A stretch of DNA of 36,711 nucleotides from Gemmataceae bacterium. Its GTDB lineage: Bacteria > Planctomycetota > Planctomycetia > Gemmatales > Gemmataceae. The translations under genes and the position numbers were made by a program. This document shows, piece by piece, positions 4,046 through 35,606 of this stretch (its first letter is position 1; the number at the start of each line of letters is the position of its first letter). Location: assembly GCA_019694755.1 (NCBI GenBank), contig JAIBBI010000039.1, positions 1-36,711 on the forward strand, written 5' to 3'. Below the pieces are notes generated by a model. It did not search any database. It was not told the origin of the DNA and saw only the letters and a program-made list of their open reading frames with translations.

Positions 4046-4141
4046 AGCGATCCTGCCTCGTGTCGAGTCCGGGTGCGGCGGGGCATGCTCGGCCCCGCGC
4101 CGTCGACAGGTATCTTATGACCCGCGGTCCGGAGGAAGGTA

Positions 4142-4460: not shown

Positions 4461-4495
4461 ATATCACACGGTCCACGCCGCTCGTTCTCGGGTTC

Positions 4496-9108: not shown

Positions 9109-9136
9109 GACAACATGATAGCAACGAGTGCCCGCT

Positions 9137-9541: not shown

Positions 9542-9690
9542 GGCTTCGGCCCGGCAGAGAGTTCGGGGCTACGCGTCAGTGTCGCAAGCGGCCACGCCAA
9601 TATCAAGTCAGGGAGGGCGATTCTCATGAACCCACTTGATTCTTTCATGTTTTCCGGTGAAACTGCTCCGCCTGCCGAGACCCCTGCCGG

Positions 9691-10872: not shown

Positions 10873-10985
10873 CCGCGACGCGCAGCGGAGCGCTGCACTC
10901 CGTGACATCAACGCTTGTGTTACGGGCATCGGATGTTGGGAACATGCGGCGGGCTGTCCGCGCTCCGCTGCGCGTCGCGGCTAAC
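10868..10985. repeat. Perfect 26-bp inverted repeat between convergent genes
   Basis: Bases 10868-10893 are exactly the reverse complement of 10960-10985, with a 66-base spacer. The left arm begins at the last codons of the CBS-phosphatase gene and includes its stop; the right arm ends 3 bases short of the hpnH stop codon. The arms are very GC-rich and contain gcgacgcgcagcggag. There is no T-run, so a simple intrinsic terminator is not obvious, though the long hairpin could end or protect transcripts from both sides. A dispersed REP-like or MITE-like repeat is an equally good reading. Confidence 0.85.
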
Positions 10986-10987
10986 TC

Positions 10988-18539: not shown

Positions 18540-19175
18540 ATGCAATCCGATCTCGTCGTCGCCATCACCGGAGCCAGCGGCTCGCCCTACGGCCTGCGGT
18601 TGCTCGAGGTCCTGCTCCGCGCGGGCCGGACCGTCCACCTCTGCATCAGCCCGGCCGCGACCGTCGTGCTCGACCGCGAAGCCGACCGGAAGGTCGACCT
18701 GTCCCGTTTCCAACCCGCCGACCTGCTCGGGCCGGTGGCTTCGGAACTTCCGCTCGACCGCTTGAAGTACCACGACTATCGCGACTTCACGGCCGGCATC
18801 GCCTCAGGCTCTTTCCTCACCGGCGGCATGGTGATCTGTCCGTGCAGCATGGGCACCGTCGCGGCCGTCGCCCACGGCACCTCCGACAACTTGATCCATC
18901 GGGCGGCCGATGTCCATCTGAAGGAACGACGCAAGCTGGTCCTCGTGCCGCGGGAAACGCCCCTCGGTATCGTCCAGTTGCGGAACCTGACGGCGTGCGC
19001 CGAGGCGGGGGCGGTCATCCTCCCGGCGATGCCCGGCTTTTACACCCGCCCGCAGTCGCTGGCCGACGCCGTGGATTTCATCGTCGGCCGGGTGTGCGAC
19101 CAACTCGGCGTGCCGCACGACCTGTTCCGCCGTTGGGGCGAGGGTTGCGGCCCCGCGGATACCGCCGTAAGGTGA
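18540..19175 (+). CDS. ubiX: Flavin prenyltransferase UbiX
   Basis: A 211-residue protein matching UbiX, which joins dimethylallyl phosphate to reduced FMN to make the prenylated flavin cofactor of UbiD-type decarboxylases. Visible motifs are AITGASGSPYG at about 8-18 (FMN-binding loop), MVICPCSMGTVAAVAHG around 97-113, LVPRETPLGIVQLRNL and MPGFYTRP. These are characteristic of UbiX rather than other PPC decarboxylase-fold flavoproteins. Its usual partner ubiD is not in the window. It begins 8 bases after the preceding gene and is followed 22 bases later by the nucleotide cyclase gene. Confidence 0.93.
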   Translation: MQSDLVVAITGASGSPYGLRLLEVLLRAGRTVHLCISPAATVVLDREADRKVDLSRFQPADLLGPVASELPLDRLKYHDYRDFTAGIASGSFLTGGMVICPCSMGTVAAVAHGTSDNLIHRAADVHLKERRKLVLVPRETPLGIVQLRNLTACAEAGAVILPAMPGFYTRPQSLADAVDFIVGRVCDQLGVPHDLFRRWGEGCGPADTAVR

Positions 19176-19197: not shown

Positions 19198-21021
19198 ATG
19201 GCGATTCTCGAAATCTACAGTCGCGACAAGTCGATCTCCTGGCGGGTCCCGCTCACGACCAAACCGCTGCGCCTCGGGCGCATGCCGGGCCTCGCGGACA
19301 TCGTGACGCCGCCGGCCGACAACTTCATCTCCAAGGTCCACGCCACCATCGCCTTGCAGACCGACGGCCGGCTCCGCGTCGTCCGCAATGCCGAGGCTCA
19401 CAACCCGATCTATTCGTTGGAAGCCGGCAAGCCGCCCGCGACTGCCGACGACTTTCTGGTGGCAATGGGCGACAGCTTCCAGATCGGAAGCACCATCTTC
19501 CGCCTCTGCGACGACAGCCGCGACGGCACCGACACGGCCGACGATGCCGGCGTGGCGATGGCCAGCGAAAACACCTACGCCCCCGAGAAGGTCCGCGAGT
19601 TCCGCTTCGTCGACGCCAACCACCGCGTCGAAGCCCTGGCCGATTTGCCACAACTCATCCTCAGCACGCAGCATGAGCGGATGCTCGAGCAGTCCGTCCT
19701 CGACACGATGCTCAAGGGGATTCCCGAAGCTGATGTCGCGGCCATCGTCCGCCTCGACCCCGACTGCAAGGAGAACGACCCGCGGATCCAGGTGCTGGCT
19801 CAGAAAGCCCGCGAGACGCTCCGTGGCGAGGGCGACGGCCACAGGCCCAGTCGACGGCTGGTCCACAACGCGATCCGCTACCTGACGCCGACGCACCACG
19901 TCTGGCAATCCGGCGGCAGCGCGGACGCCGGCTACACGGTCACCGCCGGGATGGATTGGGCGCTGTGCGTGCCGATGCCCGATCACATCGCGCCGGACCT
20001 CGGGCTCTACGCCTCGGGCCGGCTCCGCTTCACGCTGCCCGGTGCGCAGGCCGACCCGAACAAGGACAAGCAGTATCAGGGCGACGTGAAATTCGCCCAA
20101 CTCACGGCCGACATCTACGCCTCGCTGCGCCGTACGATCGAGTTGACGAACCAGCAGCGGACCATCGCCCGGTTTCTGCCCATGCCGATCGTCGCTCAGA
20201 TGGGCCGGCACACCGGCGATTTCGACGAGTTCCTGCAGGCCCGCGAATGTGACATGACCGTACTCTTCTGCGACTTGCGCGGTTCGTGCAAGATCGCCGA
20301 GAGCGGGTCCGACGATTTGCAGAAGCTACTCGGTCGACTCAGCGACGCCCTGGCCGTTATGACCGACAACATCGTGAGCCGCTGGGGCGTGATCGGCGAC
20401 TTCCAGGGCGATGCCGCGATGGCCTTCTGGGGCTGGCCCGCGGGCGAACGGCAGATCGAGCGGGCGGCCGAGAGCGCGCTGCATATCCAACGGCGATTCC
20501 GCGACCTGACCGGGCGGACCGGCTCACTGCACGGCATGGCGTGCGGGATCGGACTGGCGCACGGCCGGGGCCTCGCCGGTCGACTCGGCACTCCCGACCA
20601 GTACAAAATCGGCGCGTTCGGCCCCGTGGTCAATCTCGCCAGCCGACTCGAATCGTTGACCAAGTATTTCCGCGTGGGAGTGCTGGTCGACGGCGCGTTT
20701 GCGGCCGGGCTGGGCCCCGACCTGCCGTGGTGCCGGACCCGGCGTGTGGCCCGGATTCGCCCCGCGGGCATGACCGTATCCGTCGACGTGTGCGAGTTGC
20801 TCCCGTCGGAAGCCGAGGCGGGGGCGATGCCCGAGCACGTCCGCCGGAAGTACGAGCGCGGGCTCGACGCCTTCATCGCCGGCCGTTGGACCGAGGCCAA
20901 CAACCTCCTCGCGACCATCCCGGCCGACGGCCCGACCGACGTGGTCCGGCAGTACATTGCGGAGCACGGCGGCACCGCGCCGGCCGGTTGGGACGGCACG
21001 ATCGTCATGGCCGGGAAATAA
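19198..21021 (+). CDS. FHA domain plus class III adenylate/guanylate cyclase
   Basis: A 607-residue soluble protein. An FHA-like domain occupies about 20-103 (LRLGRMPGLADIVTPPADNF, then ISKVHATI, the phosphothreonine-binding fold). A GAF-like region spans about 150-315, and a class III cyclase domain runs about 350-510. In the cyclase, Asp359 (VLFCDLRGS) and Asp405 (GDFQGDAAMAFWG) are the expected metal ligands and N479-x3-R483 (VNLASRLE) the transition-state pair. The usual substrate-specifying Lys before the second Asp is replaced (Asp401), so whether it makes cAMP or cGMP cannot be read. The C-terminus adds a helical, TPR-like stretch. FHA input implies control by Ser/Thr kinases. It is the only nucleotide cyclase seen here and lies close to a cNMP-binding redox protein. 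Confidence 0.88.
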   Translation: MAILEIYSRDKSISWRVPLTTKPLRLGRMPGLADIVTPPADNFISKVHATIALQTDGRLRVVRNAEAHNPIYSLEAGKPPATADDFLVAMGDSFQIGSTIFRLCDDSRDGTDTADDAGVAMASENTYAPEKVREFRFVDANHRVEALADLPQLILSTQHERMLEQSVLDTMLKGIPEADVAAIVRLDPDCKENDPRIQVLAQKARETLRGEGDGHRPSRRLVHNAIRYLTPTHHVWQSGGSADAGYTVTAGMDWALCVPMPDHIAPDLGLYASGRLRFTLPGAQADPNKDKQYQGDVKFAQLTADIYASLRRTIELTNQQRTIARFLPMPIVAQMGRHTGDFDEFLQARECDMTVLFCDLRGSCKIAESGSDDLQKLLGRLSDALAVMTDNIVSRWGVIGDFQGDAAMAFWGWPAGERQIERAAESALHIQRRFRDLTGRTGSLHGMACGIGLAHGRGLAGRLGTPDQYKIGAFGPVVNLASRLESLTKYFRVGVLVDGAFAAGLGPDLPWCRTRRVARIRPAGMTVSVDVCELLPSEAEAGAMPEHVRRKYERGLDAFIAGRWTEANNLLATIPADGPTDVVRQYIAEHGGTAPAGWDGTIVMAGK

Positions 21022-21099
21022 CCCCGGAACCCGACCGGGCCGCCCGTTGCTCCCGACCCCGACATGCGGTACGCTTGTATCGTTCCCCGGAGTCACTTC

Positions 21100-22350
21100 G
21101 TGCGGCGACTGTTGTCCCTCACCGCGTTGGCGGTAATGCTCGCCGTCTGCCCCGCGGCCGACCCGCCGGCCCGCCCGGGTTACGTCGGTGTCGGGGGCTG
21201 TGCCGCGTCCGGGTGCCACGGCGGGGGCGATCGCGTCGGCGTGGCCGGCAGCGAATTCACCACCTGGGCCACCGCCGACCCGCACCACAAGGCCTACGCC
21301 GTCCTCCTGACAGAAGCCGGCCAGCGGATGACCCGCCTTTATCGTCGAAACCCCGCCGCCGACGCCGGCACCGACGCGGCCTGCCTCGCCTGCCATGCCC
21401 CGCAGGCCAGCACCGACATCAGCCTGCGGACCGACGGCGTCGGCTGCGAAGCCTGTCACGGACCGGCCCAAAACTGGCGGACGACGCACTACCTCAACGA
21501 CTGGCGCAACCTCGACTCGGCCGCGAAGGCCAAACAGGGTTTCATCCCGACCCGCGACCTCACCGGCCGGATTCAGGCCTGCGTCGAGTGCCACGTCGGT
21601 AAGCCAGGCATGGAAGTCGATCACGACCTCATCGCTGCCGGGCACCCCCGGCTCACCTTCGAGTACGCGGCCTACCACGACATCTACCCGAAACACTGGG
21701 TCGAGCCGGCCGGGGCCAACTTCGCCGTCAAATCCTGGGCGGTCGGTCAGGTCATCACGGCCTCGGCCCAGACCCGACTGATCGCCGAGCACGCCAGGAG
21801 CAAGCGTGGCCCCGAACTCGCGGACCTGAACTGCTACAGTTGCCACCGCGGGCTGACCGGTGAAGCGACCGACACGACTACCCGCCCGCCGGGCGCGCTT
21901 TCGGCCAACGACTGGGCGTTCGCCGGGCTGGCATCGGTCGGCGAACTCGGCGGCGCGTTCGCGCCACCCTCACCGGTCGATGCTCAACCGCTGCTCAACC
22001 TCGTCGGCCAACCCGGCTCGAAGCCCGCGGACGTAGAACAAGCCGCGGCGAAACTCCAGACCGCACTCGATAAGTGGGCCGCCGAACTTGATAAAGTCCC
22101 CGCGGCAGACATCGCCGGCGCTCGCAACGTGTTTACCAGGCTGGCCGACACCCGTGCGACCAACTGGGACCGCGCCGCCCAGACCTACCTTGCGATGACC
22201 GCGTTGCACCGGTCGCTGCCCGCCTCGCCCGGCCGGCAGGCGTCACTGGGCCGGGTCCGCGACACGCTGCGATTCCCGCACGGCATCAACAGCCCGGCCG
22301 GCTTCTCGCTGAATGCGTTTCACTCCGCGATGAAGGGAGTCGCACCATGA
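21100..22350 (+). CDS. Pentaheme cytochrome c, c554-like, with one CX4CH site
   Basis: About 416 residues, exported. From GTG 21100 it has a signal peptide (MRRLLSLTALAVMLAVCPAA) and GGAG 7 bases upstream; an ATG at 21064 adds 12 residues and is the alternative. There are four CxxCH heme sites, at C95 (CLACH), C116 (CEACH), C161 (CVECH) and C245 (CYSCH), plus CAASGCH (C-x4-C-H) at C34. The spacing and the GVGCEACHGPAQNW block resemble cytochrome c554-type proteins. The last third has no heme site and is helical. Its stop overlaps the start of the next cytochrome gene (ATGA), and the two proteins share several blocks. A periplasmic electron carrier is likely; its partner is unknown. Confidence 0.88.
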   Translation: MRRLLSLTALAVMLAVCPAADPPARPGYVGVGGCAASGCHGGGDRVGVAGSEFTTWATADPHHKAYAVLLTEAGQRMTRLYRRNPAADAGTDAACLACHAPQASTDISLRTDGVGCEACHGPAQNWRTTHYLNDWRNLDSAAKAKQGFIPTRDLTGRIQACVECHVGKPGMEVDHDLIAAGHPRLTFEYAAYHDIYPKHWVEPAGANFAVKSWAVGQVITASAQTRLIAEHARSKRGPELADLNCYSCHRGLTGEATDTTTRPPGALSANDWAFAGLASVGELGGAFAPPSPVDAQPLLNLVGQPGSKPADVEQAAAKLQTALDKWAAELDKVPAADIAGARNVFTRLADTRATNWDRAAQTYLAMTALHRSLPASPGRQASLGRVRDTLRFPHGINSPAGFSLNAFHSAMKGVAP

Positions 22351-23774
22351 CGCGATTCCTCGCACTTACTCTTTCACTCGCCATACCGGCGCTTGCAGCA
22401 GCTACGCCGCCGGTCACGGGCGAAACGCAGATCGTCCACAGCGCGACCGATTGCCGGAAATGTCACGAGAAGGCCGACGCGGAGTATCGCGCCAACGGCG
22501 TCTACGACATTATCGTGCCCGATGCGGCCGCCATCTGGGCCGAGCGCGACCCGCACAGTAAGGCGGCACAGGTCCTCGACAAATCGAACCCGCTCGCCGC
22601 CCGCATGAGCGCGGCCCTCGGTTATGATGTCGCCCGGCAACCCGAGTGCCTCGCCTGCCACGCAGTCGATGTCACGCTGAACGCCCCGCTCGCCGAGAAG
22701 AAGTTCGCGTGGAAGCACGGCGTCGGCTGCGAGGGCTGCCACGGCTTCGCGGCCAAATGGTTCGGCGACCACACGCTGAAGACCTGGCGCGAGGTCGAGC
22801 CGGTCAAAAAGTCCGAGTTGGGCCTCGTCGATCTCCGCGACCCGATTACCCGAGCGGCCAAGTGTGCGACCTGCCACGTCGGCAACCTGGCCGAGGGCAA
22901 GTTCGTCACCCACGCCATGTACGCGGCCGGGCACCCGCCCCTATTGCCGCTCGAAGCCGCGACCTTCAACCGCGATCAACCCGCCCACTGGAATCCGCCG
23001 GAAGACGTGCCGTACATCAGGTCGCTGCCGCCCGAAAAGGCAGCAAAGTTCTTCCACGCCCCGCCCGGCCAACTGACCGCGCCGCGGTCTGTCGCCACCG
23101 GGGCCGTCGTGACCCTGCGCGAGTCGGCCAAGTTGCTGGCCGCCGACGCGGAGCGGGTCGCGAAGGACGGGGGCCTGCTCGACTTCGCGCATTTCGATTG
23201 CTTCGCCTGCCACCACGAACTTCAGGTTCCGAGCCACCGCCAGAAACGCGGCTACCCCGGCGTGCCCGGCCGACCGACCGTCCGCCAACTCCCGACCGAC
23301 CTCGTCGGCTCCGTGCTCGCCCACGCCAGGACCACCGGCACCCCGGACCGCCAGCCGGAGTTGAAAGCACGCCTCTCTGCACTCAATAGCGCGTTCGACC
23401 AGCGGGCGTTCGGTGAACCGGCCGCGATCGCCTCGGCCGCCCAGCAACTCGTGACCGCGTGCGACAACTGGCTCGGCGATGTACGACTCGTCCGTTACGA
23501 CACTGCCGGCCGCGATGCCCTGCTCGCCGCCATCCGCGCCACCGGCAACCCTGCCGGTTGGGATTACGACGCGGCGCAACTCCAAGCCTGGGCCGCGCGT
23601 GCGCTCATTGAAAAGTCGGTGGCTCCCGGCGTATGGAACAGCGTGCTGCCGACCGCCGGGATCGACCCGAAGTCGGGCTCGGTCGACACCGCCCTCAAGA
23701 GCCGGCTCCGCGTCCGTAACAGCTTCGACCCCGCCCGATTTGCGGAGGCGTGGCGCGGACCGGCGCCGAAGTAA
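22347..23774 (+). CDS. Pentaheme cytochrome c, paralogue of the preceding gene
   Basis: A 475-residue exported protein (signal peptide MTRFLALTLSLAIPALAAAT) with five CxxCH sites: C36 (CRKCH), C101 (CLACH), C128 (CEGCH), C173 (CATCH) and C285 (CFACH). The blocks GVGCEGCHGFAAKW and AAGHPPLLPLEAATF mirror GVGCEACHGPAQNW and AAGHPRLTFEYAAY of the gene before, so the pair arose by duplication. Here the first site is a normal CxxCH rather than CX4CH. The C-terminal 185 residues lack heme sites. The four-base ATGA overlap implies translational coupling. Likely periplasmic electron transfer, perhaps as a complex with its neighbour. Confidence 0.88.
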   Translation: MTRFLALTLSLAIPALAAATPPVTGETQIVHSATDCRKCHEKADAEYRANGVYDIIVPDAAAIWAERDPHSKAAQVLDKSNPLAARMSAALGYDVARQPECLACHAVDVTLNAPLAEKKFAWKHGVGCEGCHGFAAKWFGDHTLKTWREVEPVKKSELGLVDLRDPITRAAKCATCHVGNLAEGKFVTHAMYAAGHPPLLPLEAATFNRDQPAHWNPPEDVPYIRSLPPEKAAKFFHAPPGQLTAPRSVATGAVVTLRESAKLLAADAERVAKDGGLLDFAHFDCFACHHELQVPSHRQKRGYPGVPGRPTVRQLPTDLVGSVLAHARTTGTPDRQPELKARLSALNSAFDQRAFGEPAAIASAAQQLVTACDNWLGDVRLVRYDTAGRDALLAAIRATGNPAGWDYDAAQLQAWAARALIEKSVAPGVWNSVLPTAGIDPKSGSVDTALKSRLRVRNSFDPARFAEAWRGPAPK

Positions 23775-24637: not shown

Positions 24638-27600
24638 TTATTTCTTGAACTCCCGCGGTTCCGGGAACACGTCGCGGTCTTTCGGGTCGTCGGTGACGCC
24701 CCAGACTTTGCCGTCGCGCATGTAGAGCTTGCGCTGCTCCGCCTTGTTGAGGGGTCGCGCCCCGACCCGGCCGAACACCGCGATCTGGTTGCCCGTCTCG
24801 TCGACGGCCCGGTCGCGGTCCATGCCCTTTGCCACGTTCAGCGCGTGGCCACCGTGCGGGATCTTGTACGTTGCCACCAGTTTCGGGGTCGGTCTCGGGC
24901 TGAAGCCGTCGTTGCCGGGCGTCTCCGGCCCCGTCAGTTGCACGACCCGCAGTCCGTTCTTCCCGTCCGCCAAGTAGGCGAACTGGCTGACGTAGGTGAT
25001 GCCCAGCTTCACATCGTGGCAGTCGTTGATGCAGCCGCCGGCGTCGAATTGCTGATCGAACTTCGGGCGGTCGGGCACGGTGATGTCGAGGATGACCAGC
25101 CCGCGCGGGCCCGCCGCGACGTAGGCGTACGTCCGCGCCAGATAGATCGAGTGCACATCGTGCAACTTGTACACGGCCGCGGGTCGCGGGTGCGCGAGGT
25201 CGGACACGTCGAGGATCTTGATCCCCTCCTCGTCCCACGCGTACGCATACCGGAACTGCACCTGCACGCCGTGCGCGTGCTTCAGAAACTCGTCGCCGAT
25301 CAGGTGCGTGACCTTCGGGCACTTCGGGTCGTCGATGTCGACGACCACGAGGCCCTTGTGGCAGGTCACATAGGCGTAATGGCCGACGATGATGACATTG
25401 TTCGCCCCGTCGAGCAGGCCGTCGGGGTTGAAGGTCACTTCCCGTTTCAGGAAGTTGTTGGCCGGGTCGCCGTCGATGGCCGGGGCCGCGCCGATCAGGA
25501 TCAGCCCCTCGAACTTGTCGGCCACGTACAGGTAGCCGAAGAGCCCGTGGACTTTCTGCTCCTTGTTCTCCGGCGAGTGCGTGCGCGTGGGGTCCGGCGC
25601 GGGCGTACACGGGGCGGCCACCGCCATCGCGTGCTTCGTCTTCGCATAGAACTTCTGGCCGAACGGCGATACCGGCGCGGTGGTGATGCGCTCGCTGAAC
25701 GCCTTGTCGTCGATGAACGCGATGTCGTAGATGCGGACTCCCGCTTCGCCGCACGCCGCGTACAGGTACTCGCCGCGGTTCTGCACCTGCAGCACTTCAT
25801 GCTTCTTGAACGGCTTGAGCGTCTCGGTTGCCACGTCGGGGCCGGGGTGCTCGTGGGCGTGCTTCAGGAAGCCCAGCCGTTTCAGGTGCTCGGCAAACTT
25901 GCTGGGGAATGCCATGCTGTGCAGCGTGCTGCCGATCACGGCCTGCGGTTCCTCGCGCTCCGTGACCTCGACGCCGTTGAGCCCGTGGCTCCCGGCCGCG
26001 ACCCACGCATACCGGCCGACGAAATTCACGCTGTTAGTCCCGTGCATCAGCAACTGGGCCATCGTGGCATTGTTGTCGTTGCGGACCGACACGTGGCAGT
26101 CGGTACACTGCTTCGTCTCGAACCTGCCGGCCCCGCGTACCGTGTGCGGCACATTCGTGCTGAAAGCGAGACCCGAGAATCCTTCCGCGCTCACGGTCTG
26201 CTGCTGCACGTAGATCGATTCGCGGTTCTGGTTGTACGAGCCGACGTGGATGGCGCAGCTCGAGCGCGAGGGCCCGATGCGGTTGCCCGTGGCATCGCCG
26301 TCGCGGGCCAGCATGTACACGTCGTCGCGGAGCGTCTGGAAGCAGTACGACGTGTAGTTGCGCGACACGTTGCCGTCCCAGTGCAGGCCCGGCATCTTCA
26401 TGTTCGCCCGCTGCGGCAGGTGGCAGCCGAAGCACGACGGGTTCCAGCTCGAATGGCACGCGATGCAGTGCATGTTGCTGTTGTCGTGGGCGTAGTCGCA
26501 GTTGCCGGGCGTGTCGCCCCACGCCAGCTTGCCGCCCTCGAAGCGCACGGTCTTCGCCATGCGCGATTTCTCGTTGTAATGGCGATGGGCGGGGTCGAGC
26601 GTGTCGCGGACCTGCTTCACCTCCCAGCGGACGCCCTTCTCCACCATGCTGTTCTGAAACACCTGCTCACCGACGACCTCGAACCGCGGCTTGCCGAAGG
26701 GCGTGCGCATCTGCCGGAGGTCCCGGCCGCCCTCGGCCGACGACGTGTACGAGGCCGGCCCGCTGGTCTTGAGCGTTGCCCGGGCCTTCGCGCTGCCGTG
26801 GCAGTCGATGCACTGGATCTCGCACGCCGCGCGGACTTCCATGTGCAGCCGGCCGTTGCCGTGAACGTCCTGCACGAAGTGGCAGTCGACGCAGTGCATC
26901 CCCTTCTCGAGGTGGATGTCCATCATGTGCACGGGCAGGCCGTCGCGCGACTTCTTGAACTCCTCCTCCGCCGCCCGCAGCTTTTCCAGGTCGTCGGCAT
27001 CGCGGTACAGTTCCTTCGACCGCTCGGGCACCTTCACGGCCGCCTGGAGCATCTCCGGCTTCACCTGGCTGACCGGCTCATCGCGATGATCGAGCAGCCG
27101 ACCCTGCTTGTCGTGCTTGAATACGGCGCGGAACACCCAGCCGTGGCTGTGGAAGTCGGCGAACTGGGTCTTGTCCATCTTCCCATTCAGGTCGGTGAGC
27201 TTGGCGAGGAACTGTGGGTCGGACCAGTTGCCGCGGAGGGCCGCCTCGTCCGGGTTCCGCATCTGCACGCGGACGAACTCCTGGGCCGAGTGCTTCTTCT
27301 CCTTCTCCGGGTACATGTACTTGCCTTCGGTCTCCTCATCCCACCACATGTAGCCGCAGTAGCTGTTCATCACTGTCGTGCCGGGGTGAATGTGGCAGAC
27401 CATGCACTGACTCGTCGGGATGCCGCTCGTAAACCGGTGGTCGATCGGGTGGCCCGGCTCCGTCTTGCAGATGGCCGGGTCGCCGTTGGCGGTCGCCTTG
27501 CCTTCATTACCGTGCTTCGCGAACGGGCCCGAGTGCACGCTCGAACGGTCGTTGGCATACACGACATGGCACGCGCTGCACCCGGAACTGCGGTAATCGC

Positions 27601-28522
27601 CCGGGTGATCGTTGGTGCCGAGGAAGTTGAGCGTGTCGAACAGCCGGGTCTTGTTGAGGCTCACCAGCACCGGGTCGGTGCGGTTGCCGGTGCCGAGTCC
27701 GCGGTCGGACAGGCGCGTCCGTGGCCGGCCGGGCTCTTCGGTGCGCTCCGGCAGGCCAATCTCGTTGCGGAACCGGCCCCCGCGCTCGAAGATCCGCAGG
27801 ATATTGCCCGGCTGCGACATCTCGAATCGCGGCAGCGGGTCGAGGAACGGGACGACCCCGCGCTTCATCTCCTCGTCCGTGGGCGGCGGCACAGTCAGCG
27901 CCCGCAACGGCGTGCCGTCCATCGCATAGAACTCGCCGTGCCGGGCCCGCTTGTACGGGACCGACCCGTTGTTGTAGAGGGCCGCACCCCAGAGCATCGC
28001 CCCGCTGGTCATGATCTGCTTGCGGTTGGTGTGGACTTCCTTCGGGTGACAGCCGACGGTCCCGCAACTGATATGGGCGACGCGGAGGTCGCCGGGGTTC
28101 ACGAAGCGGATGTACTCGGGTGACTCGTGGTTGAGCAGCGTCCAGGTGCGCTCGGGGTTCGCGGCCGAGGGCCAGGCCTCGGGAAACCGGCTGGCGACGT
28201 GGGCGGTCAGCTTGTCCGCGCTGTTCGGGTCGCCGCCGTGGCAGTCGGTGCAGCCGATCCGGAGCGTGTCCTTGTAATGCGGGTCGTGGGAGTTTTGGTG
28301 GCAGACGATGCAGCCCGCGCTCTTGGTGTGGGCCTCGGCCGCGGTCTGCTTGAGCAACTCGACGCCAACGAGTTCGGCAGGAATGGGGAACGGGTCGCCG
28401 GCGGGCGTGGGCGTGCGGTTGTCGGCCGGGGGCGCGTAGTACGGCGTCTGCCGGACCTGAGCCGTCGCCATCCAGCCGGCCGCCGCCAACACTGCGATCG
28501 AGAGTATCCACTTTCCACGCAC
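24638..28522 (-). CDS. Large multiheme cytochrome c with C-terminal LVIVD-type propeller
   Basis: About 1,294 residues from GTG 28522, chosen because GGAGGG lies 6 bases upstream and a signal peptide (RGKWILSIAVLAAAGWMATA) begins there; ATGs at 28543 and 28585 are alternatives. There are nine CxxCH sites (about 71, 91, 315, 373, 544, 571, 686, 697, 806) and one CGTVGCH (C-x4-C-H, about 153). From about 835 to 1210 come repeats ending in GLxVVDI or GLVILDITVP (RYAWVAAGSHGL, EYLYAACGEAGVRIYDI, HYAYVTCHKGLVVVDI, RTYAYVAAGPRGLVILDI), typical of LVIVD propeller blades. A CINDCH (C-x3-C-H) lies within the propeller at about 1164. It follows the porin gene on the same strand after 124 bases. A periplasmic or surface electron-transfer role is inferred; no enzyme family is certain. 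Confidence 0.88.
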   Translation of the reverse strand: MRGKWILSIAVLAAAGWMATAQVRQTPYYAPPADNRTPTPAGDPFPIPAELVGVELLKQTAAEAHTKSAGCIVCHQNSHDPHYKDTLRIGCTDCHGGDPNSADKLTAHVASRFPEAWPSAANPERTWTLLNHESPEYIRFVNPGDLRVAHISCGTVGCHPKEVHTNRKQIMTSGAMLWGAALYNNGSVPYKRARHGEFYAMDGTPLRALTVPPPTDEEMKRGVVPFLDPLPRFEMSQPGNILRIFERGGRFRNEIGLPERTEEPGRPRTRLSDRGLGTGNRTDPVLVSLNKTRLFDTLNFLGTNDHPGDYRSSGCSACHVVYANDRSSVHSGPFAKHGNEGKATANGDPAICKTEPGHPIDHRFTSGIPTSQCMVCHIHPGTTVMNSYCGYMWWDEETEGKYMYPEKEKKHSAQEFVRVQMRNPDEAALRGNWSDPQFLAKLTDLNGKMDKTQFADFHSHGWVFRAVFKHDKQGRLLDHRDEPVSQVKPEMLQAAVKVPERSKELYRDADDLEKLRAAEEEFKKSRDGLPVHMMDIHLEKGMHCVDCHFVQDVHGNGRLHMEVRAACEIQCIDCHGSAKARATLKTSGPASYTSSAEGGRDLRQMRTPFGKPRFEVVGEQVFQNSMVEKGVRWEVKQVRDTLDPAHRHYNEKSRMAKTVRFEGGKLAWGDTPGNCDYAHDNSNMHCIACHSSWNPSCFGCHLPQRANMKMPGLHWDGNVSRNYTSYCFQTLRDDVYMLARDGDATGNRIGPSRSSCAIHVGSYNQNRESIYVQQQTVSAEGFSGLAFSTNVPHTVRGAGRFETKQCTDCHVSVRNDNNATMAQLLMHGTNSVNFVGRYAWVAAGSHGLNGVEVTEREEPQAVIGSTLHSMAFPSKFAEHLKRLGFLKHAHEHPGPDVATETLKPFKKHEVLQVQNRGEYLYAACGEAGVRIYDIAFIDDKAFSERITTAPVSPFGQKFYAKTKHAMAVAAPCTPAPDPTRTHSPENKEQKVHGLFGYLYVADKFEGLILIGAAPAIDGDPANNFLKREVTFNPDGLLDGANNVIIVGHYAYVTCHKGLVVVDIDDPKCPKVTHLIGDEFLKHAHGVQVQFRYAYAWDEEGIKILDVSDLAHPRPAAVYKLHDVHSIYLARTYAYVAAGPRGLVILDITVPDRPKFDQQFDAGGCINDCHDVKLGITYVSQFAYLADGKNGLRVVQLTGPETPGNDGFSPRPTPKLVATYKIPHGGHALNVAKGMDRDRAVDETGNQIAVFGRVGARPLNKAEQRKLYMRDGKVWGVTDDPKDRDVFPEPREFKK

Positions 28523-28646
28523 GGCCGGCCCTCCGTGGCCCATCTCGGCGCGCAGCCTCGGCGCCCGCAAGTCACGCCCTGTCATACCCGCGATGCGTCA
28601 ATCTGGGCAAGGTCAAGAAACTTGGCGAGGTAACCGCCTGGCTACA

Positions 28647-29723
28647 TCAGAAATCCAGCCCGAACCGGAATGTCACCGCTTCCATGCTCAGGTCGCTGAC
28701 TTTGCGGGTCCGCTTGCCTTCCGCGAAGTCGTCGAGGAACGAAACGCTTTCGACCTGGTTGAACCAGTGGCTGAGTTCGTAGCCGAGGCTGAAGTGGAAG
28801 TTCCGCCGGGTCCACGTCAGGCCGGTGGCGATATCAAGCACCGGCACCACCTTCGTAAAGTTGTCGCTGATGTCGGTGACGAGTACGTTGCCGGCAAAAT
28901 TGGTTTCGGTGTTGTGCAGGCAGTAGTCCGCGACGAGCAGGCTGCCCCGGCCGCGGGCGTACGCCGACCACGCGCCGCCGAGCCGCCAGCGGCCCTCGCC
29001 GCCGATCGACAGGCCGCCCGCGTCCATGGTCAGGCGCTGGCGGGCCGACGCCTGGTTGGCGTCGAGGCCGTTGTAAGTCGCCTCGAGCACCTGGCCGATG
29101 TTCGCCGTTCGTGAGCCTATGAACATGCGGGCGTCGAAGGTCTCGTCGAGGTGGACGGTCTTGCCGAAGTCGATGTCGAAGACGTTGAAATTGAAGCTGG
29201 AGAACGCCGTGGCCGTGCTGGCCGTGTCGATGACACCGGGCCGGGTGAGCGTCGGGTACAGCAGCCCGCCCTGGGGCGCGCCGATGCTCGCGCTGTCCTG
29301 GCTGTAGGCGTACATGTAAGTGAAGCTGATATCTGTCGTGCCGCCCCGGGGCCGCCAAGTGAAGCCGACGCGGAACCCGCTGTCGGTCCGCCAGTCGAGC
29401 CCGGCCGTGTTGCCCTGCGGGATGAAGTCGTTCCGGGGATCCACGATCGCGTAGTCGAGGTCGCGGCGCGTGGGCCGGAGCAGCAGGTATTCGAACGACG
29501 CCACGAACGGCAGCACCGGCTCATTCGCGGGCACGATCTGCACGCTCGGCGGGGGCATCACCTCCGGCGTGACGTCCACGACGCCGGGGGGATACGCGGA
29601 GGCCGGCGGCGGCAGGTGCGTGCCACCGGGCACTGGCGCGACCGGCGGCGCGGCCACGGGCGATTGGGCCGTCGCCGAACCCACGGACATCAGTATCGCA
29701 GCAGCAAACCAGCGGCGCAGCAT
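28647..29723 (-). CDS. Outer-membrane beta-barrel porin (Lpg1974-like)
   Basis: 358 residues from ATG 29723, preceded by a GGAGGGTGGGAG stretch. A signal peptide (MLRRWFAAAILMSVGSATAQ) leads to a Pro-rich linker (about 21-65). A barrel of alternating strands follows (FVASFEYLLLRPTRRDLDYA, GFRVGFTWRPRGGTTDISFT, FHFSLGYELSHWF) and ends TFRFGLDF, with the terminal Phe expected of outer-membrane proteins recognised by BamA. It resembles the planctomycete Lpg1974-type pore proteins. It is followed on the same strand by the 1,294-residue multiheme cytochrome. The upstream gene on the other strand begins the b-type cytochrome operon. A pore for electron-transfer proteins is possible but not shown. 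Confidence 0.8.
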   Translation of the reverse strand: MLRRWFAAAILMSVGSATAQSPVAAPPVAPVPGGTHLPPPASAYPPGVVDVTPEVMPPPSVQIVPANEPVLPFVASFEYLLLRPTRRDLDYAIVDPRNDFIPQGNTAGLDWRTDSGFRVGFTWRPRGGTTDISFTYMYAYSQDSASIGAPQGGLLYPTLTRPGVIDTASTATAFSSFNFNVFDIDFGKTVHLDETFDARMFIGSRTANIGQVLEATYNGLDANQASARQRLTMDAGGLSIGGEGRWRLGGAWSAYARGRGSLLVADYCLHNTETNFAGNVLVTDISDNFTKVVPVLDIATGLTWTRRNFHFSLGYELSHWFNQVESVSFLDDFAEGKRTRKVSDLSMEAVTFRFGLDF

Positions 29724-29785
29724 CTCCCACCCTCCGGCAATCAACGCGGGGACATACCGGCCCCGGACCCCGCCCACAAGGTCAA

Positions 29786-29815
29786 TTGATTTCACCCCGG
29801 GCAAAACAGTACAAT
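29786..29815 (+). promoter_or_regulatory. Sigma-70-like promoter for the b-cytochrome operon
   Basis: TTGATT (29786-29791), an 18-base spacer and TACAAT (29810-29815) give a good -35/-10 pair. Transcription would start near 29822, ahead of a GGAG at 29830-29833. This places the gene start downstream of 29815 and argues against the TTG at 29786, which would lie in the -35 box. Confidence 0.5.
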
Positions 29816-29845
29816 TCGCCCTATCCCCCGGAGCCAGCAACTACT

Positions 29846-30916
29846 TTGATCATCGACGCCGGCCATATTCGCTGGATCGCGGGCACCGGACTCGCCGCCG
29901 TCGCGTCGTCGATCCTCTACGTCTGGGCCGACCGCACGACGCCCGGCGGCCTCCGCGGCGGCACCACCGCGGGCCTTTGGTTCGGCATTGCCGGCACCCT
30001 GCTCATGGCCTTCGCCGGCGCGCTCTCCGCACTCCGCAAGGTCCCCGCGTGGTGGTGGATCGGCTCGCGCAAGGCCTGGCTCAAGGGCCACATCTGGCTC
30101 GGCCTGCTCAGCGTGCTCCTGATCCTGTGCCATTCCGGATTCCGGTTCGGCGGCCCACTCGAGCGCGTGCTCTGGGTCGTCTTTGCCACCATCGTTATCA
30201 GCGGCATCGTGGGCCTGCTGCTCCAGCAATCGCTGCCCGGGTTGCTGGCCCGCCGGGTCCACGGCGAAGTCTCGTTCGAGCAGTTGCCCCACTACTGCGG
30301 CGTGCTCCGCGGCCGGGCGGATGATCTTTGCGACGCGCTCAAGCTAGCAATCTCCCCGGCCGACGACGCCGCCGGCCGGTTCTATTCCGCGTACGACGAC
30401 GACGTCCGCCCGTTTTTCGACGTGCCCGCCCCGCGCCGCACGACCTTCATCGACGAGCATGCCATCCGCGTCTGGTTCGACCGCGTCGGCGAAGCCCTGC
30501 GGATCGGCGCGGCCGGCGACGCGGAAGCCGCGGCCGCGCTCGTCAATGATCTCCGCCCCACCATCGACCCGGCCAAGGCGAAAGAACTGCTTCCCCGGCT
30601 CGACAAACTGGTCTCGGGCATGGATCGGCTGTTTGATACCGTGAATACCGCGGGCCTGCCCGCAGCCGCCCAGGCATCGTTTACTGAACTGCGGACATTG
30701 GCGACCGGCGCGCCCGAGGTGGTGCCGGCCGTGATCAGTCAGGCGGCGTCGGCTTGGATGGCCGCGATCGAATCGCTGGTCACCGAACGGTCGGGCCTGC
30801 GGTTCCAGGAGCGGGTCCACCGCTGGCTGCACGGCTGGCTGCTGATCCACGTGCCGCTCTCGGCCGCGCTCCTCGCTCTCACACTCGCCCACATCGTGAT
30901 GTCGCTTTACTACTAG
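29846..30916 (+). CDS. Diheme b-type membrane cytochrome (candidate quinol-side subunit)
   Basis: 356 residues from TTG 29846 (GGAG 12 bases upstream; start uncertain). About five membrane helices: roughly 8-27, 40-60, 82-98, 107-128 and 333-354. The third carries H82 and H96 and the last carries H335 and H349, each pair being H-x13-H, the spacing that places two b hemes in cytochrome b and related quinone-reactive proteins. Between helices 4 and 5 lies a helical soluble domain of about 200 residues (DDLCDALKLA to VTERSGLRFQ). I know no exact family. It is the first gene of a unit with the decaheme and Fe-S genes, 11 bases before the former. Confidence 0.75.
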   Translation: MIIDAGHIRWIAGTGLAAVASSILYVWADRTTPGGLRGGTTAGLWFGIAGTLLMAFAGALSALRKVPAWWWIGSRKAWLKGHIWLGLLSVLLILCHSGFRFGGPLERVLWVVFATIVISGIVGLLLQQSLPGLLARRVHGEVSFEQLPHYCGVLRGRADDLCDALKLAISPADDAAGRFYSAYDDDVRPFFDVPAPRRTTFIDEHAIRVWFDRVGEALRIGAAGDAEAAAALVNDLRPTIDPAKAKELLPRLDKLVSGMDRLFDTVNTAGLPAAAQASFTELRTLATGAPEVVPAVISQAASAWMAAIESLVTERSGLRFQERVHRWLHGWLLIHVPLSAALLALTLAHIVMSLYY

Positions 30917-30927
30917 CGGACCGCACC

Positions 30928-32406
30928 ATGGATCCCGCCCGCGACCCGAAGACGCTGACCGACCGGCTGGAAACCGATTATTACCAGCGGCCGGGCACGC
31001 TGCGGCGCGGCAAATGGTTCTGGTCCGTCGTCGCCCTCGTCGTCTCGACTGTGCTCGTCGGCGCGCTCATCGCCATGCCGCGCTGGCACTCGACCTTCCA
31101 GGCCGGGCCGGTCTCCTCGGCCCATGCGGTCTTCGGTGCGGACTGCTCGCAGTGCCACGACAACCACTTCGCGACCGCCGCCCGGTTGATTCCCGGAATC
31201 ACCTCGAGCTCCGTCAGCGATGAGAAATGCCTGAACTGTCACGGGGCCGGGCGACACGACCCGCACCAGACCACCAACACGAGCATGTCCGGCCACTTCG
31301 CCGCCAAGTGCGTGAGCTGTCACATGGAGCACCGCGGGCCGCACCTCGCCCGGCTCAGCGATCAGACCTGCGTTCGCTGCCATGCCGACATCAAGACCGA
31401 CGACGGCAAGACCCGTTACGCGGGCCAGATCCAGCACTTTGCCCACGGTCATCCGGAGTTCGGTTCGTGGCGGGGCAAGCCGGTCACCGACCCGGCCGGC
31501 GGCAAGTTCTTTTTCAACCACGAGCGGCACCTGAACCTGGCGAACGACCTGAAAGACCTCCCGCCCGACCGCCGGCCCGCCCTCGCCGCCGAGTTCGCCA
31601 GGATGCGCGACCTCGACTGTGCGTACTGCCACACGACCGATGCCGACGGCAAGCGAATGCAGCCGATCCGGTACGACGCGCATTGTGCCGCATGTCACCC
31701 GCTCACCGTCGCGCCGCAGCCGGCCGGGATCTGGCCCGACGACGTAGCAGCGAAGTTCCTCGCGGAGCCGTTGAAACACCCCGGCCCGGATCAATCGCCG
31801 GAGCTGATCCGCTCGCAACTGCTGGCCCGCTACCTGAGCGTTGCTGACAAGGCCAAGTCGACGGCAGACCGGCCGATAGTGCAACCCAACGTGTTGCAGC
31901 ATGCCGATGAAGCCGTCGCCGCGGACCGCGAACGGCTCGCCCTCGATCGCACCCGGTTGACCGAGGGGCAACTCTTCGACCGCAAAGGCGTCGGCTGCAA
32001 CATGTGCCATGCGAAGACGGGGACGACTCCGGACGGATTGCCGACGCTCGCCGCACCGTACCAGCAGCGTGGCCGGTGGCGCGACGAGATTGCCAGTTGG
32101 CCCGACCCCGAGCGGTTCCGGTCGCCGGCCTATGCCGACGCCGCCAACCGCTGGTTCCCGCTGGCGACCTTCGACCACCGGGCCCATCGTACTTACAAGT
32201 GCACCGACTGCCATGCGGCCCGGACGAGTTCGAAGACCGAAGAAGTGCTGATGCCCAACCACGCGAAGTGTGCCGAGTGTCACAACGGCGGCAGACAGTC
32301 GGCCCGCAGCGACTGCCTGACCTGCCATACTTATCACGACCGCAGTCAGGAACGCGCGCCCGCCACACTCACCCGACCGGCGGAACCCGCCAGGGGTGGA
32401 CCATGA
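30928..32406 (+). CDS. Membrane-anchored decaheme cytochrome c
   Basis: 492 residues from ATG 30928, the first codon after the b-type cytochrome gene (a frame reaching 30754 overlaps that gene). One N-terminal membrane segment (FWSVVALVVSTVLVGALIAM, about 31-50) anchors it, with the rest periplasmic. Ten CxxCH sites: C73 (CSQCH), C101, C128, C148, C231, C253, C357, C425, C448 and C463 (CLTCH). Many free His lie between them (HHAH-type ligands for bis-His hemes). This resembles NapC/NrfB-like electron-transfer cytochromes in form, but not in known sequence. The stop overlaps the next start by ATGA. It probably takes electrons from the b-type subunit or passes them to outer-membrane partners. 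Confidence 0.87.
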   Translation: MDPARDPKTLTDRLETDYYQRPGTLRRGKWFWSVVALVVSTVLVGALIAMPRWHSTFQAGPVSSAHAVFGADCSQCHDNHFATAARLIPGITSSSVSDEKCLNCHGAGRHDPHQTTNTSMSGHFAAKCVSCHMEHRGPHLARLSDQTCVRCHADIKTDDGKTRYAGQIQHFAHGHPEFGSWRGKPVTDPAGGKFFFNHERHLNLANDLKDLPPDRRPALAAEFARMRDLDCAYCHTTDADGKRMQPIRYDAHCAACHPLTVAPQPAGIWPDDVAAKFLAEPLKHPGPDQSPELIRSQLLARYLSVADKAKSTADRPIVQPNVLQHADEAVAADRERLALDRTRLTEGQLFDRKGVGCNMCHAKTGTTPDGLPTLAAPYQQRGRWRDEIASWPDPERFRSPAYADAANRWFPLATFDHRAHRTYKCTDCHAARTSSKTEEVLMPNHAKCAECHNGGRQSARSDCLTCHTYHDRSQERAPATLTRPAEPARGGP

Positions 32407-35400
32407 GCGAGAAGAAGCCCGACCCGCCGAAGAAGGACCAGCCGCAGGGCCCGCCGGTCGACGTCTCCTGGGCGGACATATCGCTCTCGGAGATGCTGCG
32501 CGAGCGGTCGGAAGACGCGTCGAAGGTCGCCGACCCGCCCGCGCCGAAGAAGCCGGACACCACGCCGGTGCTGTTCGGCGACGATTCCGTCGACGGCGAG
32601 AAGAAGCCCGCGCCGCCGCCGGCGAAGAAGCCGGACACCGCGCCGATCGTTTTCGGGGACGATTCGGCTCCGGGCGAGACGAAGCCCGTCGAAACGCCCG
32701 CCGCAAAGCGGGCGACGCCGATGATCGTCGGCGATGATTCGTTCGACGGCGCACCGATCAGCACGGGGCAGAAGTCCCCGGCCGCCCCGAAGCCGCCCGC
32801 GAAGAAACCGCTGCCGGGCGGTAATCAGCCGTCGTTCGCCGAGTTGGATCTCGAAAAAGTCCTGACGCCGAAGCCGTCGCCGACCAAAGCCCGGCCGCGC
32901 GACGACATGATGTCGCTGCTCGACATTTCGCTTTCCGACTCCGTGCTCCAGCAGATCGCGAAGCGGGCCCCGGCGAAACGGCCCGACGAGTCGAAGCCGC
33001 GCGATGACATGTCGTTTGCCGACTTCGCGCTGCAGGAGATCGAGCAGAAGCAGGAGCTGAACGCGGCCGCCGCGATCGCCGCGCCGCCCGCACCCGCGCC
33101 GGCCCCGCCGCCGGAGAAGCCGGCCGAGAAGGTGAAGGAAGTCGCCGTCAACCGCGAGGCGATGCTCGAGCCCCGGCGGAAAGACGTGCAGATTCCGGTC
33201 GACAAGCTGGTCGCTTTCCGCGACTGCATCGGCCTGTTCAGCCAGCTCAAGAACAAGCCCAGTGTCGAGAAGTGGCCCGGCACGCTGGTGCTCCGCCGGT
33301 ATCACCCCGGCGAGCCGGTCTTCCGCCAGGGCGAGGCGGGCATGTCGGCGTTTTACGTGCTCACGGCCGCCGACGAAGACCGCCTGCGGGCCGCCAAGCT
33401 GATCCCGCCGCAGCGGACCATGATCGACCTCGAAACCTCCGCCGAGGCGCTGGCCGTCCACCTCGCGATCGCCCGGCCCGTCGTGAAGCAGGAATCGTGG
33501 GTCGATCGGCTGGCCAACTATTTCGTCAAGAAGCCCGAGGTGAAGGCCCAGCCGAAGTTCATCCCGATCGACGCGCCGGTGGGCGTCGAGTACGAATCGC
33601 GGCGGGCCGTGCTCTCGGCCGGCGACCTGTTCGGCGAGATGAGCTGCCTGTACCGCACGCCGCGCTCGGCTACCGTCGTCGCGGAGCGCGATTGCTATGT
33701 CGTCGAGCTCCTGCGCAACGTCCTCGATCAGCTCAAGAAGGACCCGAAGTTCAAGGAGGAGATGGACAAGAAGTACAAGGAGCGCGTCTTCGGCCTTCAG
33801 GTACTCAACCTGCCGATTTTCCGCGGGTTGAACGAGGAACTCATCACCTGGCTGCGCGACAAGGCGACCTTGAAGAGCTACCGCGCCGGGCAGGTAGTCT
33901 GCGACGAACACGACCGCCCCGACGACATGATGATCATCCGCGGCGGGCTCGTGAAAGTCTGCCAGGGGGTGAGCAACCTTTACGGCCGGTCGGACGTGCT
34001 GAGCTGGACCGGTCTCGCGGCCAAGCTCGTCGCCGCGGCCGAGGGCACGCCGCTGGCCCGCGTCCGTGCGACGCTCGGCCCCTCGGCCGACGAACGCCTG
34101 GCCAACGAGGCGCACGATCCGACCGCCCTATCGGCCGACCAGTGGCAGGAGGTGCTCTACGAGCTGAATGATCTCGTCAAAGGCCCGCCATTGGGCGAGA
34201 CCGATGCCGCACTCGCAGGCCCGCAATACAAGCTGCTGCTCGCCACGCTGCCCAAGGCGGCCAAGGACCGGTCCGAGTCCGACGCCCGCCGGCTCAACCG
34301 CACATTCCTCGACGAGTTGCTCGGCGGCGCGGTGCGGGCGAAACGGCTCTCCGCGGGGCCCGAGTCGATCCTGCAATACGCCAGCCGCGGCGACCTGATC
34401 GGCGAGATGGGCGTGGCCATGAACCGCCCCCGCAGCGCGTCGTGCCTCGCTTACACTCACCCGCGGTTCGGCCAGGCGCTCGAAGACGTGAAGAGTACGG
34501 AGGAAGAAACCGTCGAGGTGGTCCTGCTCCCGGCCGCGGCATTTCGCGAGCTCCTCGACAAGCCCGGCGCGGAATCCGTCCGCGCCCACGTCGAGCAACT
34601 GATTTCGACGCGACAGCGGTCGGACCTGCTCCGGCAGAAACTCGCGCCCGGCTCCGATTCCGGCCGGCGGCTCTCGCCCGAGTTCGAGAAGCTCGGCCTG
34701 ATTCAGGGCCAGAAGCTGATGCTCATCGACCTCGACCGCTGCACGCGCTGCGACGAGTGCGTCCGCGCGTGTGCCGACGTGCATTCCGACGGCCGGAGCC
34801 GGCTGTTCCTCGAGGGCCCGCGGTTCGAGCGGTATCTCGTGCCGATCACCTGCCGGTCGTGCCTCGACCCGGTGTGCCTCATCGGCTGCCCGGTCGGCAG
34901 CATCCACCGCGGCGACAATAAGCAGATCACCATCGAAGATTGGTGCATCGGCTGCGGCCTGTGCGCCCGGCAGTGTCCGTACGGATCGATCCTGCTGCAC
35001 GACATCGGCCTGATCGCCAACGGGGCGCGGGAGTGGTCGTTCAACTCGGGCGAGGTGGATCCGACGAAGCGGCCGGGCATCGCCCACTGGCCCACGGCGG
35101 CCGCACCCTTTCGCCTTTCGCGCGATTTCCGATCGCGGGTGAAGCCGTCGACCGTCTACTGGTTCGCCCGCACGTTCGACGTGCCGGCCGACCTGCTCCG
35201 CGACCACGTCTTCGAGATGGAGTTGACCGGACTCGACCCCGCGGCCCAGATCTACATCAACGGCACGGAGGTCGCCACCAAGGAGCGGCTGAAGAAGGAC
35301 AAGCGGGCGTTCCCGATCGCGGAGCCCGAGAAGTTCCTGCGGGCAAAGAACAACATGATCCTGGTTCGCGTCTCGCCGAAGGAGGACGAAGCCGGGGTGA

Positions 35401-35606
35401 TCTTCGACCTGCGGCTGGACGCTTCGCCGCGGCCGGTCCGGGCCGAGGGCGCGGCCATCGAGTACACGGAGAAGGCCGTCACGAGCCGGGCCGTCGTGTG
35501 CGACCTGTGCAGTAACCTGCCCGGCCAGGTCCCCAGTTGCGTGAACGCCTGCCCGCACGACGCGGCCATGCGCGTCGACGCCCGCACTGGGTTCCCGACG
35601 CGGTAG
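32403..35606 (+). CDS. Two cNMP-binding domains fused to a four-cluster [4Fe-4S] protein
   Basis: 1,067 residues from ATG 32403, GGGGTGG just upstream; no signal peptide, so cytoplasmic. A disordered Pro/Lys-rich N-terminus (1-250) contains repeats. CNB domain A (about 268-445) has GDLFGEMSCLYRTPRSATVV at 408-427, and domain B (about 466-720) has GDLIGEMGVAMNRPRSASCL at 663-682, both with the phosphate-binding Arg; each contains a long insertion. Residues 780-858 and 1033-1050 hold 16 Cys in four groups (C780/783/786/790, C817/820/825/829, C848/851/854/858, C1033/1036/1046/1050), the pattern of DmsB/NrfC/HybA-type subunits with four clusters. A beta-sandwich of the GH2 sugar-binding type (about 900-1010) sits between the third and fourth groups. 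Probably passes electrons to or from the membrane b-cytochrome under cyclic-nucleotide control (inference). Confidence 0.88.
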   Translation: MSEKKPDPPKKDQPQGPPVDVSWADISLSEMLRERSEDASKVADPPAPKKPDTTPVLFGDDSVDGEKKPAPPPAKKPDTAPIVFGDDSAPGETKPVETPAAKRATPMIVGDDSFDGAPISTGQKSPAAPKPPAKKPLPGGNQPSFAELDLEKVLTPKPSPTKARPRDDMMSLLDISLSDSVLQQIAKRAPAKRPDESKPRDDMSFADFALQEIEQKQELNAAAAIAAPPAPAPAPPPEKPAEKVKEVAVNREAMLEPRRKDVQIPVDKLVAFRDCIGLFSQLKNKPSVEKWPGTLVLRRYHPGEPVFRQGEAGMSAFYVLTAADEDRLRAAKLIPPQRTMIDLETSAEALAVHLAIARPVVKQESWVDRLANYFVKKPEVKAQPKFIPIDAPVGVEYESRRAVLSAGDLFGEMSCLYRTPRSATVVAERDCYVVELLRNVLDQLKKDPKFKEEMDKKYKERVFGLQVLNLPIFRGLNEELITWLRDKATLKSYRAGQVVCDEHDRPDDMMIIRGGLVKVCQGVSNLYGRSDVLSWTGLAAKLVAAAEGTPLARVRATLGPSADERLANEAHDPTALSADQWQEVLYELNDLVKGPPLGETDAALAGPQYKLLLATLPKAAKDRSESDARRLNRTFLDELLGGAVRAKRLSAGPESILQYASRGDLIGEMGVAMNRPRSASCLAYTHPRFGQALEDVKSTEEETVEVVLLPAAAFRELLDKPGAESVRAHVEQLISTRQRSDLLRQKLAPGSDSGRRLSPEFEKLGLIQGQKLMLIDLDRCTRCDECVRACADVHSDGRSRLFLEGPRFERYLVPITCRSCLDPVCLIGCPVGSIHRGDNKQITIEDWCIGCGLCARQCPYGSILLHDIGLIANGAREWSFNSGEVDPTKRPGIAHWPTAAAPFRLSRDFRSRVKPSTVYWFARTFDVPADLLRDHVFEMELTGLDPAAQIYINGTEVATKERLKKDKRAFPIAEPEKFLRAKNNMILVRVSPKEDEAGVIFDLRLDASPRPVRAEGAAIEYTEKAVTSRAVVCDLCSNLPGQVPSCVNACPHDAAMRVDARTGFPTR

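Follow-up and report, generated by a model that had tools for sequence, protein, structure and literature searches.

The genes at positions 24638 to 35606 of a Gemmataceae contig (JAIBBI010000039.1, assembly GCA_019694755.1) raise the question of whether one locus can encode a route for electrons across the entire cell envelope and place this route under the control of a cyclic nucleotide. The window analyzed here is the whole 36,711-nucleotide stretch of that contig. A sequence-only reading of the window had proposed such a conduit, and sequence and Pfam checks found all of the parts that it named. On balance, most of a conserved electron conduit through the envelope is probably encoded here, with cyclic nucleotide (cNMP) control at its cytoplasmic entry. 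The parts themselves, the ligands of their cofactors, the linkage and co-occurrence of the genes, and the cNMP-binding motif are seen in the sequences, whereas the compartments, the contacts between the proteins, the gating, the outward direction, and the terminal acceptor are inferred from them. Such a chain of heme and iron-sulfur proteins appears to be undescribed in the open literature searched. Its inner module is encoded on the plus strand and consists of a diheme b-type inner-membrane protein (bmem; 29786-30916), a decaheme cytochrome with an N-terminal membrane anchor (MHC10; 30928-32406), and a predicted cytoplasmic protein that combines cNMP-binding (CNB) domains with four [4Fe-4S] clusters (the CNB-Fe-S protein; 32403-35606). 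These three genes look like a single operon, as the first two are separated by an 11-bp gap and the last two share an ATGA overlap. Divergently, on the minus strand, lie the gene for a large decaheme cytochrome with C-terminal LVIVD repeats (MHC; 24638-28585), the candidate outer-membrane terminal of the chain, and, upstream of it, a gene for an outer-membrane protein of the Legionella_OMP family (28647-29723; Pfam match at 1e-28).

The proposal that the two divergent halves belong together is borne out by their distribution. In a set of 294 genomes from the phylum, a full MHC, defined by an E value below 1e-100, is found in 32 and a CNB-Fe-S match in 77; 31 of the 32 genomes hold both (Fisher P of 1e-19). 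The outcome that the sequence-only reading had named as refuting, divergent halves that do not occur together in other genomes, is thereby contradicted. Thirteen of the 31 genomes, including that of the window, have the two genes on a single contig and no more than about 20 kb apart, and several of the remaining ones have them on short contigs. In some loci, such as L080, the genes for MHC, the CNB-Fe-S protein, bmem, and MHC10 all share one strand. At least 526 MHC relatives are found in named genomes, mostly of Planctomycetota and Acidobacteriota. The best 80 of these, which made up the locus survey, come from these two phyla and one Rokubacterium, and their carriers include Limnoglobus roseus, Tautonia sociabilis, Rubripirellula obstinata, and Rhodopirellula maiorica. 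Among the 34 surveyed loci with at least 8 kb on both sides, 29 encode an AlgE-like β-barrel and 20 encode at least one inner-module gene. Chance adjacency of two unrelated operons, one for outer-membrane proteins and the other for an inner-membrane redox complex, would fit the location of the conserved barrel elsewhere in the window genome and the lack of conservation of the neighboring Legionella_OMP gene. However, the near-complete co-occurrence and the repeated co-localization, sometimes on a single strand, already disfavor this explanation and make it extremely improbable.

The CNB-Fe-S protein (cNMP_binding match at 4e-24, Fer4 matches, no transmembrane [TM] segment) would be the cytoplasmic entry, or exit, point of the chain. 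Its 16 cluster cysteines, forming four [4Fe-4S] motifs, are kept in 20 of 21 homologues. Among solved structures, its CNB part is closest to regulatory subunits of PKA and its Fe-S part to HycB/NrfC-type proteins; the latter part matches HycB3, NrfC, and HycB/DmsB-like proteins, with a DmsB score of 38.2 bits that does not reach the 214-bit equivalog level. The cNMP-binding cassette of the window protein reads FGEMSCLYRTPRSATV, and the FGE...PRSATV motif is conserved in the homologues. The ribose-contacting Glu is present in 21/21 and the phosphate-contacting Arg in 20/21 of them, and the motif of the window protein is, by its residues, intact. Nucleotide binding might change the position of the CNB domains with respect to the Fe-S domain and so open or close the electron flow. 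Because the CNB domains sit in an electron-carrying protein, we suggest that the ligand alters either the distance between clusters or the docking of the CNB-Fe-S protein to bmem. No description of a CNB domain joined with a multiheme conduit was found in the open-licence literature searched.

The nucleotide itself would be made by a linked FHA-type cyclase and removed by a class-II phosphodiesterase. In the window, a class III nucleotidyl cyclase with an FHA-like N terminus is encoded at 19198-21021 on the plus strand (Guanylate_cyc match at 7e-7); this gene was not among the parts listed by the sequence-only reading. It has the same architecture as the FHA-GAF-cyclase of locus L085, its middle part being GAF-like by alignment to that homologue, and it accounts for one of the two PF00211 matches in the 5.6-Mb window genome. 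The statistics of linkage are partly post hoc and take their genome-wide figures from search hits: a PF00211 cyclase is encoded at most 5 kb from genes of the system in 7 of 28 genomes against 0.48 expected (P of 2e-7), and a relative of the class-II cAMP phosphodiesterase, usually a single-copy gene, is linked in 4 of 28 against 0.07 expected. With the window genome left out, the others collapsed into 16 families, and a generous territory of 60 kb allowed per family, cyclase linkage is seen in 4 families against 1.06 expected (P of 0.015). FHA-type cyclases directly adjoin MHC in L131 and L189. Another cyclase of this type adjoins a paralogous module of c554-type cytochrome, CNB-Fe-S protein, bmem, and MHC10 in L211, and one more is found close to such a module in L207. 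Directly behind the CNB-Fe-S gene of L065 lies a gene (positions 8550-11693) in which a cyclase is joined to a protein kinase domain. Just ahead of the window cyclase gene lies one for a UbiX-family flavin prenyltransferase (18540-19175, plus strand).

These data are evidence of linkage and no proof of gating. The CNB domains might be structural only, with the cyclase and phosphodiesterase as chance neighbors and the conduit free of cyclic nucleotide control: some proteins are known to reuse the CNB fold without a ligand, and a linked cyclase is found in a minority of the surveyed loci, 12 of 80. Nevertheless, the retention of the Glu and Arg residues, the excess of cyclase and class-II phosphodiesterase linkage over expectation, and the presence of a cyclase also at the paralogous module make a purely structural role unlikely. 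The intact binding motif and the linked cyclase and phosphodiesterase genes thus lend added support to the cyclic nucleotide control proposed from the window alone.

The membrane step would be carried out by bmem, a protein of 376 residues that has no Pfam domain and is predicted to contain four TM segments. Two of its helices each contain a pair of His residues spaced 14 apart (H102/H116 and H355/H369), as expected for a heme pair within a membrane; all four are invariant in every homologue that covers them, and a wider set agrees. Foldseek searches with the predicted helical model gave no significant match, and the VIA matches were mostly helical-bundle look-alikes, with one NADPH oxidase (NOX) among them. 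The alignment of bmem residues 2-149 with NADPH oxidase 8qt6 covers 139 residues with an rmsd of 5.5 and a Z score of 8.5, a value common for helical arrangements. bmem shares with NOX the two helices with two His each, 14 residues apart, but it has no fused flavin/NADPH domain; in relatives of the system, the NADH input would come through a separate NuoEF-like protein, which is absent in the window genome. By analogy with the NOX heme pair, the two hemes of bmem would pass electrons across the inner membrane.

On the periplasmic side, the predicted carriers are the anchored MHC10 and two pentaheme cytochromes. MHC10, with 10 CXXCH motifs and one TM segment, is encoded together with bmem and the CNB-Fe-S protein in related genomes. 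It scores 27.8 bits against the DmsE/MtrA-type model TIGR03508, short of the cut-off of 192.2, and weakly matches TmcA and QrcA, far under their cut-offs. The Tmc, Hmc, and Qrc complexes of sulfate reducers resemble the present system in having a periplasmic multiheme cytochrome, a membrane subunit, and a cytoplasmic Fe-S protein; however, they have no counterpart to its CNB domains and outer-membrane parts. The pentaheme cytochromes, which the sequence-only reading had taken for possible shuttles, both proved to be of the c554 type, a family found again in related loci. Cytochrome A (21064-22350, plus strand; Cytochrome_C554 match at 7e-14), a candidate periplasmic shuttle, has four CXXCH motifs and one CX4CH motif, and cytochrome B (22347-23774, plus strand; 5e-12) has five CXXCH motifs. 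Their genes share an ATGA overlap and begin 42 bp after the end of the cyclase gene.

At the outer membrane, MHC and a β-barrel would carry the electrons to the surface. MHC, the core component of the conserved system, consists of 1,315 residues with nine CXXCH motifs and one CX4CH motif, followed by the LVIVD repeats (match at 3.5e-17). These ten heme sites are kept wherever they could be aligned (24/24 or 25/25 sequences) among 25 aligned homologues. An eleventh heme was considered and rejected, as the additional CX3CH motif at C1185 is not conserved in this set. A phmmer search of PDB with MHC gave no match, and its profile retrieved only weak matches to octaheme nitrite reductases over about 50 residues. 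The MHC of the window matches the ExtM model of Geobacter at 2e-16 and 59.2 bits and does not reach the 800-bit equivalog cut-off; ExtM matches all 18 members of the MHC family that were compared (best E value, 6e-31) and ExtN matches 14 of them, all far under the equivalog cut-offs. These matches make MHC a distant relative of the Geobacter cytochromes ExtM and ExtN. The earlier statement that known conduits use other protein families therefore has to be modified for this component.

The β-barrel is a different matter. The sequence-only reading had taken the outer-membrane protein next to MHC for the porin of the conduit, but the Legionella_OMP family was rejected in this role: it is the partner of MHC in no related locus outside the window, and the window genome encodes three copies of it. 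Its homologue is seen just once in related loci, in L145, which also carries an AlgE-like barrel. In the relatives, the position immediately upstream of MHC is taken by a gene for a protein of 540 to 870 residues that is predicted to form an AlgE-like barrel of about 18 strands (best PDB match, AlgE; E value of 4e-17). The conserved partner of MHC is this AlgE-like barrel and not the Legionella_OMP protein. Several relatives in Gemmataceae likewise have no barrel gene directly upstream of MHC, and the gene in this position varies. As relatives carry the AlgE-like barrel and the upstream neighbor varies within the family, the Legionella_OMP gene of the window is most likely a bystander. The AlgE-like barrel of the window genome (E value of 5e-242) is encoded on a separate 4.7-kb contig, C151, whose composition fits that of the genome; there (L103; positions 2197-4736), the barrel gene is directly followed by one for a class-II cAMP phosphodiesterase-like protein.

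In three acidobacterial homologues (L182:7433-9721, L183:5695-8013, and L195:7560-9863), the N terminus of the barrel protein is formed by a signal-like sequence together with a tetraheme cytochrome domain. These fusions are direct evidence, at the level of sequence, of a barrel working with heme proteins. They resemble Cyc2 in having a cytochrome fused N-terminally to a barrel, but they have four hemes and 18 strands, whereas Cyc2 combines a single heme with 16 strands (PMC8406198). A comparison of 23 barrels with the Ext models gave no match at an E value of 0.01, in a model set that may not include ExtI. Most planctomycete loci and many acidobacterial ones also have, next to the barrel gene, a gene for a protein with HbpS-like domains (e.g., L068:4180-6015 and L090:9410-13087). 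This family is absent from the window, and elsewhere in the window genome it has only a weak partial match.

The direction of the electron flow is suggested by related genomes. In G058, G130, G216, G274, and many Acidobacteriota, the CNB-Fe-S protein is encoded together with a NuoEF-like fusion of a [2Fe-2S] thioredoxin-like, an FMN/NADH-binding, and an NADH_4Fe-4S domain, and in these relatives it has an N-terminal extension similar to HoxU/NuoG. In the Gemmata relative L176, the NuoEF gene directly follows that of MHC10. In many relatives, electrons would thus pass from NADH through the NuoEF-like protein to the HoxU-like extension of the Fe-S protein. The window protein has no Fer2 or Fer4 domain matched before its CNB domains, that is, no HoxU-like extension. 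A search for a dedicated NADH module elsewhere in the window genome found none, its two NuoF-like proteins looking like the HoxF diaphorase and complex I. The NADH input and its docking domain have probably been lost in this genome. As both the NuoEF-like protein and the HoxU-like extension are missing, the donor here would be some other carrier in the cytoplasm or else the quinone pool. HoxE/HoxF/HoxU-like genes are found at C35:2196-5000 (L109) of the window genome and might be part of an NAD-linked hydrogenase.

Because relatives carry an NADH-oxidizing module, we infer that electrons most likely flow outward. All components are reversible carriers, and the tetraheme-barrel fusions are reminiscent of Cyc2, an iron oxidase in which cytochrome and porin are fused (PMC8406198); the chain might therefore run inward, taking electrons from Fe(II), Mn(II), or a partner cell through the barrel, the cytochromes, bmem, and the Fe-S protein to the cytoplasm. 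With the NuoEF module of the relatives, however, outward oxidation of NADH is downhill, whereas the reduction of NAD+ by Fe(II) via a heme pair, with no pump involved, would by established energetics be strongly uphill. The inward direction is accordingly quite improbable.

For an outward chain, the external partner may be metals or humic substances, oxyanions, or surface enzymes that are supplied with electrons. A real chain might not serve mineral or electrode respiration at all and might instead feed a redox enzyme at the surface, such as a copper-dependent polysaccharide oxygenase or an oxyanion or heme/iron reductase, perhaps HbpS-like. The carriers include cultured planctomycetes, which we take to be aerobic polymer degraders, HbpS-like genes adjoin the barrel in many loci, and the LVIVD repeats may serve as a binding platform. 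In addition, the closest described relatives of MHC are ExtM/ExtN, and the porin of their cluster, ExtI, is needed for selenite and tellurite reduction (PMC5877670). On the other hand, no gene for such an enzyme was found as a constant neighbor in related loci, and the HbpS-like family has only the partial match mentioned above in the window genome. We consider this alternative somewhat unlikely.

Several observations weigh against the main reading of a trans-envelope conduit under cNMP control. Barrel and MHC are encoded on different contigs in the window genome, and an 18-stranded barrel is far narrower than MtrB, so that a decaheme wire may not fit through it; MtrB has 26 strands (PMC8406198). 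The surface location of MHC is putative, with a lipobox-like sequence in 24 of 98 MHC homologues. The cyclase statistic loses much of its strength after the conservative correction, the phosphodiesterase linkage comes mainly from a single family (f30), and the window genome is devoid of the NADH module. Several cultured carriers are presumably aerobic heterotrophs, whose way of life does not obviously call for metal respiration.

The comparison with described systems shows a shared plan built from different parts. Like MtrCAB and Pcc (Omb-Oma-Omc), the present system combines a barrel, multiheme cytochromes, and an inner-membrane input, and in most related loci the barrel is likewise encoded beside the outer-membrane cytochrome, as opposed to the separate contig in the window genome. 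However, the barrel is AlgE-like with 18 strands and not 26, and the input consists of bmem and the CNB-Fe-S protein. The DmsE/MtrA and MtrC models had no match at cut-off among the window proteins. By the features tested, the system is neither Mtr nor Pcc. The Geobacter ext cluster (extHIJKLMNOPQS), involved in selenite and tellurite reduction, encodes the porin ExtI, the cytochromes ExtM and ExtN, the Rieske protein ExtO, and the cytochrome b ExtP (PMC5877670). Both clusters contain large cytochromes along with a porin and a b-type cytochrome of the inner membrane, but here LVIVD repeats are added, bmem and the CNB-Fe-S protein replace the ExtO/ExtP pair, and the NuoEF input and the cyclase/phosphodiesterase linkage are features of the present system. 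According to a 2018 study of Geobacter (PMC6148476), a conduit cluster is defined by three components, namely a multiheme cytochrome in the periplasm, a barrel in the outer membrane, and an outer redox lipoprotein; the present system resembles this plan but has different parts. The main text of a 2024 survey of outer-membrane multiheme cytochromes (PMC11475568) names neither Planctomycetota nor Acidobacteriota.

Only tentatively, as an idea that is plausible if short of probable, the system can be viewed as a distinct class of extracellular electron transfer that is widespread in Planctomycetota and Acidobacteriota. In this class, electrons would be driven across both membranes, by NADH in most lineages, through a NOX-like diheme wire and then a decaheme/LVIVD cytochrome that works with an AlgE-like barrel, and the Fe-S subunit that carries them would be switched directly by cAMP or cGMP, which co-encoded enzymes would make and destroy. 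Soils, sediments, and fresh water harbor both phyla in large numbers, and to our knowledge neither is counted among the groups with a well-understood route of extracellular electron transfer. If the proposal is correct, both would gain a defined electron route to the surface that is independent of Mtr and Pcc, and the CNB domain inside an electron carrier would make this, as far as we know, the first respiratory wire to be gated directly by a second messenger. The system is found in hundreds of genomes, including those of culturable species, and can be tested by gene deletion.

The inner module also comes in other forms. In other planctomycete families (L085, L087, L075, L069, and L070), a second type consists of a 17- to 18-heme cytochrome, bmem, the CNB-Fe-S protein, and a 15-heme cytochrome. 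L207, L208, L209, and L211 carry the paralogous module of c554-type cytochrome, CNB-Fe-S protein, bmem, and MHC10 without the large cytochrome and the barrel.

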